Shown here piece by piece: positions 10,738-58,960 of a stretch of DNA of 64,000 bases. How positions within the stretch are numbered: position 1 is the first letter of the stretch; every line of letters begins with the position of its first letter. Location: assembly GCA_947175875.1 (NCBI GenBank), contig CAMWON010000004.1:62001-126000 (forward strand), given 5' to 3'. A model generated the notes under the pieces. The model saw nothing but the letters and a program-made list of their open reading frames with translations, made no database searches and was not told where the DNA came from. The translations under genes and the position numbers were made by a program. This DNA comes from an uncultured Alphaproteobacteria bacterium. GTDB lineage: Bacteria > Pseudomonadota > Alphaproteobacteria > Rs-D84.

Positions 10738-10767
10738 TTGGACAAACCCGCGCTTTCAATATATAAT
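10738..10767 (+). promoter_or_regulatory. Promoter of type A leader 1
   Basis: TTGGAC (10738-10743), 18-bp spacer, TATAAT (10762-10767). The same TTGGAC-18-TATAAT occurs on the minus strand at 58996-58967 before leader A3. Confidence 0.75.
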
Positions 10768-10773
10768 TTATTC

Positions 10774-10998
10774 CGTCGACGGGTGTTCCGTCGGCGGGGT
10801 GTCAGAACCTCTGCTTTGGCGTCGGACAATGGGGGCGCAACGCGCCTTTTTTGATACGACGAAAAACAAACTCCTGAACCGCGGGTCAGGAGGGTTGCGA
10901 ATATATTGAATAAGCACACAATTCCAAAGATTGTTCTGAACCTCCTGACCACCAAATTTTGGTGGTTTTTTCGTTTCGAAAAACAGGAGAAAAGAATA
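10774..10998 (+). ncRNA. Structured 5' leader, type A copy 1 (candidate attenuator/riboswitch)
   Basis: Predicted elements: P1 CCGTCGACGG/CCGTCGGCGG (10773-10797, loop GTGTT); P2 GGGGT/ACCTC (10796-10811); P3 GGCGC/GCGCC plus TTTTTT (10834-10852), terminator-like; a CTCCTGA (10871-10877) pairing with b TCAGGAG (10886-10892); c CCTCCTGAC (10941-10949), which is complementary to b over nine bases; terminator-like ACCACC/GGTGGT plus T-tract (10948-10971). Then CAGGAG and ATG 10999. Segment b is also an AGGAGGG ribosome site for an in-frame TTG at 10906 (MNKHTIPKIV...). Stems keep pairing while sequences change in copies A2 and A3. Structure and function are inferred by eye. Confidence 0.72.
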
Positions 10999-11502
10999 AT
11001 GAAAACAAAACTTTTTATGTCGGTCATATTATGTTCGGCTGCCGTTAATACATGTTACGCACTCGGTACCACAAAACTGTGCTGCGATATAGCCTATGTG
11101 GAGGGGCAGCCATGTAAATGTTATGCAGACTCGTCCGGCAGTTGTGCGCTGTGCAATGGCGGGGGCAGCGTCGGCAGTGGCTGCAAAGACTGTGACAGTA
11201 CTGACTGGGCGCCGACCGGCACCGCCGGATATGAATCAAGAATTAACGCGGTATGCGCGCTTATTAACGGACATTGCACCAAGACGACAGTATATCGGTG
11301 TGCCGCCGGGTATTATGGAAAAGCGAAGTACTTGGGCGGACTGTCGGGGTGTACGCGCTGTCCGTCATCGGGTGGCGTATATGGTACAAATACGGCCGGC
11401 GAGAATGAGGACATAACGTCGTGCTGTATCCCGGCGAATAGAACAATGACCGATTCCGGCGGCACATTTACGTTTACTGATAAATGTTGTTATTCAAATT
11501 AA
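10999..11502 (+). CDS. Exported small Cys-rich protein (SGCTRCP-SGG family)
   Basis: 167 residues. Signal peptide MKTKLFMSVILCSAAVNTCYA; the mature part is very rich in Cys, Gly and Ser. The C-terminal half has YRCAAGYYG, SGCTRCPSSGGVYGT, an acidic-Thr-Ser-Cys motif and a terminal FTDKCCYSN. The same pattern is found at 17061, 18781 and 58115, so it is one of four paralogs here; the N-terminal halves diverge strongly. Probably disulfide-bonded and displayed or secreted; function unknown. It is preceded by the structured type A leader, from which an in-frame TTG (10906) could add 31 residues. A terminator follows immediately. Confidence 0.75.
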   Translation: MKTKLFMSVILCSAAVNTCYALGTTKLCCDIAYVEGQPCKCYADSSGSCALCNGGGSVGSGCKDCDSTDWAPTGTAGYESRINAVCALINGHCTKTTVYRCAAGYYGKAKYLGGLSGCTRCPSSGGVYGTNTAGENEDITSCCIPANRTMTDSGGTFTFTDKCCYSN

Positions 11503-18507: not shown

Positions 18508-18780
18508 GAATTCAATAGGGATATTGGATTCGGGGTCGTCAAAAAGCCCACACAAAAGCGGTATGTGAACGCATGCTGTATCCGCATATATTGCGGCGCG
18601 ATTGCGCCCTTTATTGTATATGCCCCGATTTTAAACAGGTCGGGGAGCCGTCGGTTATAGAACAGGACGCCATGCGTCCAAAGACCGCCGGGGTCATTCT
18701 TTTGTGTGATTTTTTGAACTCCCCGACCGCCATTTCCTTGGCGGTTTTGTGTTTGATATAAAACCAAGGGGTCAAAAATC
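18508..18780 (+). ncRNA. Structured 5' leader, type B copy 2
   Basis: Elements in order: CCGCA/TGCGG hairpin near 18580-18596, GGCGC/GCGCC (18595-18608), a CCCCGA (18623-18628) pairing with TCGGGG (18640-18645), b GGTCGGGGAG (18638-18647), GGACGC/GCGTCC hairpin (18665-18679), c CTCCCCGACC (18719-18728) perfectly complementary to b over ten bases, terminator-like CCGCCA/TGGCGG plus TTTT (18727-18748), then AAGGGG and ATG 18781. GGACGC/GCGTCC here against GGGCGC/GCGCCC in copy B1 is a compensatory change. It fills the 387-bp gap 18394-18781 together with its promoter and the short slyB-like promoter region. Confidence 0.72.
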
Positions 18781-52346: not shown

Positions 52347-52582
52347 GTCGGTGAGAGTTTCGCCGATGGGGTGTCAGAACCTCTGCTTACGCGTCGTTGA
52401 TTAGTGGCGCAGTGCGCCTGTTTTTATATCGCGACGAAAAATAAACTCCTGAACCGCGGGTCAGGAGGGTTGCGAATATATTGAATAAGCACACAATTCG
52501 TAAGATTGTTCTGAACCTCCTGGCCACTCAAGTTTTGAGTGGTTTTTCATTTCGAAAAATAATTTTTAACGGGGCAACGACA
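52347..52582 (+). ncRNA. Structured 5' leader, type A copy 2
   Basis: P1 TCGGTGA/TCGCCGA (52348-52366, loop GAGTT), P2 GGGGT/ACCTC, P3 GGCGC-AGT-GCGCC plus TTTTT (52406-52425), a CTCCTGA (52446-52452), b GTCAGGAGG (52460-52468), c CCTCCTGGC (52516-52524), which still pairs with b through a G-U, terminator-like CCACTCAA/TTGAGTGG plus TTTTT (52524-52547). The in-frame TTG at 52481 (MNKHTIRKIV) lies 102 bases before ATG 52583. From CTCCTGAACC to CACACAATTC (about 50 bases) it is nearly identical to copy 1. Confidence 0.72.
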
Positions 52583-53704
52583 ATGTTTAGGGATGTGACG
52601 GTGTGTCTTTTGGGAATGCTGTGTTGTGCGCCGGCACTGGGCGCTGATTGCAATATTGGGGAATACACAAATGGTGATGTTTGCACGGTGTGTCCTGAGC
52701 CATATGTGCACAGTATGCCAAATGCGGACGGTGTAAACGATTGCTATTTGATAACGGCGGCCGGGAAATATGTTCCCGCCGCTGGTATGACGGAGGTGGC
52801 GTGTCCTGAGAATCATTATTGCCCAGGCGGTATTCCTGTGTTCTATGGCCGTGCGGACCGATTGCGGCGCATAGAATATATCAAAAGTACAGGCACGCAG
52901 TATATAGATACAGGGATTTTGTTGGGCTCGGACATTGATACGGAAATGGTTTTTGAAAACGGGAAAATAAGTCTTGATAATGCGATTTTTGGTTCATGGA
53001 TTTCAGAGAGGCATTATTGGCTGAATGGTTATAATAACATGGCCTATATCAGATATAATGATTATCATCCGGTTGCCGAGGCCAAAGGGCATTTGCCCGC
53101 GGATGTCAGGCTTATATTGGGCGTGCGCCATGGCGATTGGATTTTGGATGGTAAAACAATATATTCAAATTCCGGGGAATTTGATGTAGACAAACCCGGA
53201 TATTTATTTGCGGTAAACGGCAGTACGGGTGTCAGATGGATTCATAAGTCTTTAAAAGTATACTCATTTACACAATGGCAAAAAGACAAAAAAGTAATTG
53301 AATTGATTCCGGTATATGATTCTGTAAAAGACGAATGCGGCATGCTGGATTTAGTGACGGGCAAATTGTTTGAAAATGTCGGTACGGGAAAATTTGAATG
53401 CGGCGCATTTGTGGATGATATCGTTGGTGCCGGTGGTGCGGCGTCATGTGCGGCGGCAACTGATAATGTCGCGCCATATTCGCCGGCGGGGACCGAAGAT
53501 ATGTCGGACTGTGGGCGGGTATTGCGTTTTTCCGGTAATTATAACCTGTATCTGCGCAGCCGGCCGCGCACCACGCACAGTTTAAAAGTAAAAATTGGCG
53601 GCAATATATTTTATGGCGACAGTACCGATAAAGAATGCGGACGTCTGCGTGTCAAATATAACGGGCAGACCATGTCAGTGTGCAATATGGATTCGGATGT
53701 TTAG
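52583..53704 (+). CDS. Exported LamG-like surface protein with shared C-terminal domain
   Basis: 373 residues from ATG 52583. Signal peptide to ALGA. An N-terminal Cys-rich EGF-like segment (CNIGEYTNGDVCTVCPEP, CPENHYCPGG) is followed by a beta-rich region (IEYIKSTGTQYIDTGILLGS, KVYSFTQWQKDKKVIELIPV, LDLVTGKLFENVGTGKF) resembling the LamG/concanavalin-type domains of gut-bacterial surface proteins. The C-terminal 60-70 residues (DCGRVLRFSGNYNLYLRS, TTHSLKVKIGGNIFYG, GRLRVKYNGQTMSV) match the end of the 1896-residue protein at 32243. No SGCTRCP module, so type A leaders serve two protein families. Confidence 0.78.
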   Translation: MFRDVTVCLLGMLCCAPALGADCNIGEYTNGDVCTVCPEPYVHSMPNADGVNDCYLITAAGKYVPAAGMTEVACPENHYCPGGIPVFYGRADRLRRIEYIKSTGTQYIDTGILLGSDIDTEMVFENGKISLDNAIFGSWISERHYWLNGYNNMAYIRYNDYHPVAEAKGHLPADVRLILGVRHGDWILDGKTIYSNSGEFDVDKPGYLFAVNGSTGVRWIHKSLKVYSFTQWQKDKKVIELIPVYDSVKDECGMLDLVTGKLFENVGTGKFECGAFVDDIVGAGGAASCAAATDNVAPYSPAGTEDMSDCGRVLRFSGNYNLYLRSRPRTTHSLKVKIGGNIFYGDSTDKECGRLRVKYNGQTMSVCNMDSDV

Positions 53705-58114: not shown

Positions 58115-58717
58115 TTAATTTTTGTAATAACAGTTTCCGGTATATGTGCCACTGCCGGTGGAATCGCTGAAGCTGCTGCCCGACGGTATATAACATGATG
58201 TGATTACGGTACTGCCCGCGGCGGCGGTTGTTCCATGTGCGCCGCCGGACGCCGGACAGCGCGTGCATCCCGATGTTCCGTTTGTTGAACTGCCGTAATA
58301 TCCGACGGCGCATCGGTATTCTTTTGTCGTGGTGCAATGTGTGGTGTCGCAGTAATCACGTACCTCGTACCCTGTGGACTTTGCGGTCCATGCGGTCGTG
58401 CTGCATCCGTTTGTGCAGCCGCATGTGTAATAGTATACGGTTTTCGAGCCCTCAATCTCCAAACTGTGTGATATTCTGGATTGTCCGGTGTTGCATGTGG
58501 GGCAAGACCATATTACGTATGTTTTTCCACTGCCGGGCGAGCTTTTATAGCATGTTGTGCTGCGATTGGAGCATGATGCTGTCGCGCTTTTGGTGCCCAT
58601 GTTGTCGTATCCTGTTGAGCTGTAATCCGATGGGCATGCGATGTCGATTATGACTGCGTATGCGCCGGTTGTGCCGAAAAAGCACGCGCATCCCAATATT
58701 GCCAGTTTTGTTTTCAT
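58115..58717 (-). CDS. Exported small Cys-rich protein (SGCTRCP-SGG family)
   Basis: 200 residues from ATG 58717 (ATCAGGAGATT upstream). Signal peptide MKTKLAILGCACFFGTTGAYA. The N-terminal half has CNRSTTCYKSSPG, CPTCNTG, TCGCTNGC; the C-terminal half has YRCAVGYYG, SGCTRCPASGGAHGT, CYIPSGSSFSDSTGSG and YTGNCYYKN, the shared module. The longest of the four paralogs. The in-frame TTG at 58813 would add 32 residues that resemble those of copies 1 and 2. Unknown function. Confidence 0.75.
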   Translation of the reverse strand: MKTKLAILGCACFFGTTGAYAVIIDIACPSDYSSTGYDNMGTKSATASCSNRSTTCYKSSPGSGKTYVIWSCPTCNTGQSRISHSLEIEGSKTVYYYTCGCTNGCSTTAWTAKSTGYEVRDYCDTTHCTTTKEYRCAVGYYGSSTNGTSGCTRCPASGGAHGTTAAAGSTVITSCYIPSGSSFSDSTGSGTYTGNCYYKN

Positions 58718-58960
58718 TTGTTCAATCTCCTGATGTTTTTCGAAATGAAAAACCACCCAAAATTGAGTGGTCAGGAGGTTGGAAACAATCGCTAGAATTG
58801 TGTGCTTATTCAATATATTCGCAGCCCTCCTGACCCGTATGGATTCAGGAGTTTGTTTTTCGTCGTAATAGTAAAAACGGCGCCTGTTTGCGCGCCACAA
58901 GAACATATTCCGACGCTAGCGTAGAGGTTTCCACACCTCATCATCGGAACACCCGATGAC
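58718..58960 (-). ncRNA. Structured 5' leader, type A copy 3
   Basis: Minus strand: P1 TCATCGG/CCGATGA (58959-58941, loop GTGTT), P2 GAGGT/ACCTC, P3 GGCGC/GCGCC with TTTTT (58896-58873), a CTCCTGA (58851-58845), b GTCAGGAGG (58834-58826), c CCTCCTGAC (58778-58770), terminator-like CCACTC/GGGTGG plus TTTTT (58770-58748). P1 has a sequence different from copies 1 and 2 yet pairs fully. The 311-bp gap 58717-59028 holds this leader, its promoter and the pfkA terminator. Confidence 0.72.

Follow-up and report, generated by a model that had tools for sequence, protein, structure and literature searches.

What are the structured 5' leaders that stand in front of exported-protein genes in this uncultured alphaproteobacterium? 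The window (the whole 64,000-nt stretch of DNA that was analysed) contains three copies, and inspection of the sequence located all of them where the first-pass annotation had placed them. That annotation proposed a functional RNA leader with compensatory changes, a claim which is strongly supported by pair counts, covariation and a copy-specific code between segments a1/b1 and a'/b'. Two outcomes that it had named as refuting, a lack of further copies and a lack of covariation, did not occur. It missed this code, the phage link and the size of the family. Our best explanation, to which we give a probability of about 0.68, is that these are domesticated phage C4/CI-type (P1, P4, sRNA-Xcc1) autosilencing leaders of ~65 chromosomal genes in bacteria of the Enterousia type.

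Organization of leaders in the window

The predicted features of the three copies and of two Type B members of the superfamily are as follows.

10739–10767 (+): copy 1, promoter TGGACA-17-TATAAT, sigma-70-like, 11 of 12 matches
10775–10795 (+): copy 1, P1 hairpin, from sequence
10796–10811 (+): copy 1, P2 hairpin, loop a1 TCAGAAC (10802–10808), complementary to a'
10814–10819 (+): copy 1, target b1 CTTTGG, complementary to H2 loop b' CCAAAG
10834–10852 (+): copy 1, T1, GC hairpin with T-run, first terminator-like site, from sequence, alignment and comparison with P4
10871–10877 (+): copy 1, segment a CTCCTGA, partner of b in the alternative pairing
10884–10893 (+): copy 1, segment b GGTCAGGAGG, forming the 5' side of the C4-like outer stem; the predicted RNase P cut lies just 5' of it
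10894–10917 (+): copy 1, H1 hairpin, conserved loop GAATATATTGAATAA (10899–10913), from alignment and covariation
10918–10934 (+): copy 1, H2 hairpin, loop b' CCAAAG (10924–10929), from covariation and code match
10933–10939 (+): copy 1, a' GTTCTGA, complementary to a1
10941–10950 (+): copy 1, segment c CCTCCTGACC, forming the 3' side of the outer stem and sharing bases with the terminator
10947–10971 (+): copy 1, T2, intrinsic terminator GACCACCAAATTTTGGTGGTT+TTTT, from sequence; strong, just before the gene
10999–11502 (+): gene after copy 1, exported Cys-rich protein of 167 aa without Pfam match
52347–52547 (+): copy 2 leader, T2 ending at 52547
52374–52380 and 52386–52391 (+): copy 2, code sites a1 TCAGAAC and b1 CTTACG
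52459–52468 and 52516–52525 (+): copy 2, outer stem arms b and c
52583–53704 (+): gene after copy 2, exported protein of 373 aa
58748–58960 (-): copy 3 leader, C4-like module at 58748–58853
58933–58927 and 58921–58916 (-): copy 3, code sites a1 TGGAAAC and b1 CGCTAG
58115–58717 (-): gene after copy 3, exported Cys-rich protein of 200 aa
17621–17750 (-): Type B superfamily member with C4-like module, before an exported protein, joint code match of 18 nt
18620–18749 (+): Type B superfamily member, before an exported protein, joint code match of 17 nt

As described in the first-pass annotation, the window copies carry a promoter, the hairpins P1, P2 and P3 (a GC hairpin with a T-run), an a:b hairpin, segment c and a terminator, and their P1 stems differ in sequence yet remain paired in all three. 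Two of its readings hold only in part. P2 is a hairpin but not merely that, as its loop is the target a1 and is followed by a second target, b1. The a:b hairpin and segment c are both present, but b:c closes a C4-like fold and competes with a:b. T1 of copy 1 occupies the position of the isrK terminator in phage P4; this element is missing from compact class-2 copies. Conservation of the -10 box extends over 16 class-1 copies, and the start codon mostly lies 24–31 nt after T2, with a Shine-Dalgarno site present.

Two minor features were also observed. In many class-1 copies the T-run of T2 is often trailed by a complementary A-run that abuts the Shine-Dalgarno site (TTTTTC..GAAAAA), as at positions 10966–10984 of the window. 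Type B leaders have the same architecture with a different H1 (GTTATAGAACAGG..CCAAAGA).

Conserved fold and covariation

A covariance model, designated R1, was built from 37 aligned leader copies, with own-genome copies among them. In this alignment, 92.7% of the b:c, H1, H2 and terminator pairs were standard, and 83 two-sided changes were counted, compared with a mean of 28.6 after shuffling (none of 500 shuffles was as high). Among 99 further matches from the genus, whose alignment was fitted to R1 and so leans towards the model, 92.0% of pairs were retained, and again the covariation score lay above that of all 500 shuffles. In both alignments this score collapsed once one strand was slid against the other, and in the first so did all other measures.

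The deduced fold is that of the C4/CI superfamily, in which the outer stem surrounds two hairpins followed by a 3' linker. The loop of H1 hardly varies (GAAUA..GAAUAA); plain energy folding did not recover H1 and H2 in the copies inspected. The two alternative pairings, a:b and b:c, are almost equal in predicted energy (median difference of -0.75 kcal/mol in 50 copies), and b:c makes use of 3 nt of the T2 stem.

A copy-specific code

Two complementarities link the module to sites near the 5' end of the leader: segment a', which immediately precedes c, matches the P2 loop upstream (a1), and b', in the loop of H2, matches the bases that directly follow P2 (b1). The a1/a' pair is TCAGAAC/GTTCTGA in copies 1 and 2 and TGGAAAC/GTTTCCA in copy 3, and it differs in other copies, while the b1/b' pairs of copies 1, 2 and 3 are CTTTGG/CCAAAG, CTTACG/CGTAAG and CGCTAG/CTAGCG, respectively. 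We parsed 39 class-1 copies by flanking anchors, without the use of complementarity. All 7 positions of a1:a' were paired in 39/39 copies (shuffled mean 77%, maximum 83%, 1000 shuffles), as were 97% of the b1:b' positions (shuffled mean 55%, maximum 64%, 1000 shuffles), and 38 of the 39 codes were distinct. When the 61 own-genome leaders were compared with one another, joint matches of 13 nt or more occurred in 85% of self pairs versus 1.7% of non-self pairs, and self was the top-ranked partner for 49 leaders. The code loops are the most variable positions (up to ~2 bits) of an otherwise near-invariant module. The orthologous leaders L287 and L289 have different codes, each internally matched. 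In genome G003, the leader of an orthologous exported gene has a different yet internally matched code. Sequence evidence establishes the fold, the pairing of a1 with a' and of b1 with b' specific to each copy, and the competition of a and c for b.

Tandem leader pairs, ~200–260 nt apart, were observed before single genes, and some of these pairs share a code. Examples in G000 are C3:14749/15007, C3:19313/19575, C5:75456/75658, C5:130962/131186, C6:21578/21786, C4:15896/16137, C5:111772/112008 and C1:224880/225136. Another unusual case involved a sister-genome leader (L183:3490–3594) with a matched a1/a' and a poor b1/b' (4/6), possibly the result of a recent exchange between copies.

Size and distribution of the family

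The leaders are far more numerous than the three copies of the window. The own genome comprises 953 kb (0.95 Mb), and its scan took in contigs C6–C9 in part. It contained 27 blastn matches to the leader and 64 leaders at E<=0.01 with R1; the R1 E-values are rough (short calibration), and some weak matches may represent degenerate copies or belong to neighbouring genes. These 27 matches and 64 places exclude chance as the source of the likeness among leaders. In ten sister genomes of Candidatus Enterousia type (order Rs-D84), R1 detected 29–61 leaders per genome, and a DNA search also matched leader DNA in most sister genomes of the genus. Other families of order Rs-D84 had few or no R1 matches, and no R1 matches occurred in other sampled families of the class Alphaproteobacteria.

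Database records with the core motif were mostly Alphaproteobacteria MAGs, many of them from animal gut, and two were named Candidatus Enterousia, a genus with reduced genomes of ~0.75–1.0 Mb and 800–1200 genes (PMC12306168). In IMG/VR contigs with the core, leaders precede an exported protein and an ABC transporter; no clear phage origin was found for these contigs.

Relationship to sRNA-Xcc1 and phage C4/CI RNAs

The first-pass annotation recognised no Rfam class. Formally this stands, as nothing in the window leaders reaches an Rfam gathering threshold, but a permissive search revealed full-length matches to RF02221 (sRNA-Xcc1) below its gathering cut-off of 53 bits. Eighteen own-genome places matched this model (the best with 46.7 bits and E 1.4e-7, below the cut-off), the class-2 copy L046 matched it over its full length with 35.1 bits, and a sister-genome copy (G062) scored 55.5 bits, above the cut-off. 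Reciprocally, R1 finds true sRNA-Xcc1 loci (L256, E 7e-7). An H1 motif shared by the two groups is visible by eye, GAGGGCGGTGAATA..GAATAAGCCCGC in L258 versus GGAGGGCGGTGAATA..TTGAATAAACCCGC in C1:267154. Common to both are the b:c outer stem, the GAAUA..GAAUAA H1, the H2 loop b', the linker a', upstream a1/b1 and a position directly before a gene. These comparisons of sequences and models establish that the Enterousia leaders are homologous to sRNA-Xcc1. As riboswitch candidates, Rfam families gave no match at gathering and, RF02221 aside, no convincing weak match.

Of 398 genomes sampled from the phylum, 55 had true sRNA-Xcc1 loci. The loci directly preceded genes, many of which resemble those of phage antirepressor (BRO-N), KilA-N, Rha and SymE-like proteins (named by eye, not by profile). 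In integron cassettes, sRNA-Xcc1 has been found upstream of symE (PMC12444791). The true loci have the upstream a1/b1 contacts and, in about half of them, second targets a2/b2 downstream, near the ribosome site. The Enterousia leaders differ in that such a2/b2 targets, a mark of P1-type C4, occur only at background, an intrinsic terminator and segment a are added, and most copies score below the RF02221 cut-off.

RNase P releases C4 from a precursor, and C4 acts through a' and b' to silence the cognate mRNA; C4-like RNAs also undergo processing (PMC5320573). Like C4 of phages P1 and P7 (RF01695, with c4-a1b1, RF03163), the leaders have the order a1, b1, hairpin with a T-run and C4 fold, together with copy-specific antisense segments a' and b'. 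The annotation of phage P1 (AF234172) gives the order a1-b1-C4-a2-b2, with a2/b2 at the ribosome site, and a hairpin between b1 and the module, CCGCA..TGCGGTATTTTTGTG(T/C)CC, is common to P1 and several sRNA-Xcc1 leaders. P1 C4 blocks translation via a2/b2, the target that is missing in Enterousia leaders, and the genes that follow these leaders do not encode antirepressors. The curated C4 model RF01695 gave no match in the own genome at E<=10; the C4 link therefore rests on RF02221 and the layout. Among the papers searched, none stated a link between sRNA-Xcc1 and C4.

Another relative is CI of satellite phage P4 (seqA/seqB/seqC, with an isrK-like leader), which pairs with seqA and seqC, whereupon premature termination follows (PMC4825925). 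In P4, C4, isrK and c4-a1b1 matches lie in one neighbourhood, and the contact GUGAGAA/UUCUCAC fits the pairing scheme. The likeness consists of a leader-derived antisense RNA, complementary segments upstream and downstream and premature termination as the output, the first and last of these being predicted on the Enterousia side. CI controls phage replication genes, whereas the Enterousia elements are intrinsic-terminator leaders of ~65 chromosomal genes. Group 1 C4-like sRNAs of Acinetobacter baumannii are also numerous per genome and have variable a' loops (PMC5320573). They were described as sRNAs; an Enterousia unit instead consists of a ~200-nt leader and the gene behind it, its transcript includes the cognate target, and the genome is smaller than 1 Mb.

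Downstream genes

The earlier view that the leaders precede exported proteins is correct for the three window copies but too narrow for the genome, where class-2 leaders also stand ahead of the genes for small HTH regulators and for a C5 DNA methyltransferase. The leader of this methyltransferase (G000 C2:59007–59123, minus strand) has an additional hairpin inside its H1 loop. Among downstream products of 80 aa or more, 33 appear to be exported (mean Cys content 7.7%, median length 200 aa) by a home-made signal-peptide rule that wrongly counts the DNA methyltransferase as exported. Most tested products had no Pfam match, and one was an outer-membrane beta-barrel. Several share a Cys-rich C-terminal segment. 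This segment, GYYG..GCTRCP.SGG..CY.PSG..FSDSTGSGTYTG.CYY, has no Pfam match and is common to the products of 10999–11502 and 58115–58717 and of both Type B genes.

The mutase and deaminase genes that flank copy 2 are adjacent (4–62 bp) in 16 of 30 genus genomes, and a 1.4-kb unit of leader and gene is inserted between them in the own genome and in G023. Leader and gene behave as one inserted unit.

Proposed mechanism and alternatives

Under the preferred reading, the transcript would start just before P1 and carry a1, b1, T1 and segment a, followed by the C4-like module (b:c, H1, H2 with loop b', linker a'), T2, the Shine-Dalgarno site and the gene. Read-through past the terminators would yield the antisense module, and a cut by RNase P 5' of b would release a stable antisense RNA of 80–90 nt. 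By analogy with C4, the leader is probably processed in this way. The 5' end of b is GG, and the window also contains an RNase P RNA. An RNase P substrate should carry RCC after its outer stem; by a crude count, RC follows the stem in 73% of copies but RCC in only 50%, which speaks against the proposal. Also counting against the preferred reading are the lack of a2/b2 and of an RF01695 match, the RF02221 scores of most leaders and the result of plain energy folding. The antisense RNA, in trans or still attached, may pair through a'/b' with a1/b1 of its own leader and favour termination at T1/T2. The gene would shut itself down after its RNA accumulates and be expressed mainly while this RNA is scarce, and distinct codes would keep genes from silencing one another. 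Relative to P1, the ribosome-site target appears to have been lost, with the T2 terminator in its place, and segment a, complementary to b, to have been added. Autosilencing is proposed because a:b and b:c are nearly equal in predicted energy and b:c draws three bases from the T2 stem; the direction of each switch step and the action in trans are inferred.

The same two properties, together with the nearly invariant H1 loop, would also suit a purely cis-acting pseudoknotted attenuator or riboswitch, in which a1:a' and b1:b' are tertiary contacts and a small molecule or protein, possibly at the H1 loop, switches between a:b and b:c and controls T2. Every code match lies within one transcript, which alone does not separate trans action from a cis fold. 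However, both long-range contacts fall on the most variable positions and nearly every copy has its own code; this counts against a cis-only fold because such variability is expected if cross-talk is selected against, although neutral compensatory drift may account for it as well. As the known relatives P1 C4 and P4 CI act as antisense RNAs (PMC5320573, PMC4825925) and the downstream genes have no common pathway, we regard the cis-only attenuator as unlikely, if the strongest competitor.

The promoters might instead mainly make stable trans-acting sRNAs ending at T1 or T2, the downstream gene being an incidental or lesser output. Both sites resemble intrinsic terminators, sRNA-Xcc1 is a stable RNA of 88 nt with RACE-mapped ends (PMC2996969), and the Acinetobacter C4-like sRNAs are abundant (PMC5320573). 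The near-constant distance from T2 to the start codon, with its Shine-Dalgarno site, and the insertion of leader and gene as one unit argue against this possibility and make it quite improbable. A mobile element (an integron-like attC or recombination site) that functions through the folding of its DNA and not of an RNA would agree with the discrete insertions of leader and gene and with the occurrence of sRNA-Xcc1 in integron cassettes (PMC12444791); but the conserved promoter, the strand-specific arrangement of terminator and Shine-Dalgarno site and the matched a1/a' codes are explained by RNA, and a DNA element is very improbable. Translation from the TTG of ATATTGAATAAG in the conserved core, as an N-terminal extension or upstream peptide, is hardly credible even though all three window copies have this codon in frame with the ATG and no stop in between, since conservation tracks base pairing and not codons. 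As a general feature it was rejected: of 21 own-genome copies, 9 have the TTG in phase and 6 have an open frame, which is about chance.

Significance

If the autosilencing reading is true, ~7% of the genes in a very small genome are under private phage-type antisense RNAs, and the leaders constitute a natural library of orthogonal RNA repressors. It seems that a phage repressor was recruited here to switch dozens of genes, most of them for exported proteins, and the family offers a handle on many uncharacterised exported proteins of uncultured gut Alphaproteobacteria. We tentatively extend this to ~50 mutually orthogonal antisense codes in which each mobile unit of leader and gene carries its own immunity RNA. 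Such a unit might be silenced once established and burst on entering a code-free cell, units of the same code might silence each other, and the phage immunity principle might thereby have become gene-by-gene control of a secreted-protein repertoire.

The autosilencing reading would also apply to sRNA-Xcc1, which has been studied as a virulence-linked trans sRNA. If true, this RNA is the processed core of a C4-type leader, and its cognate target is its own transcript. At one true sRNA-Xcc1 locus (L269:1501–1584), a CRISPR repeat array (L269:24–1193) lies ~300 nt upstream.
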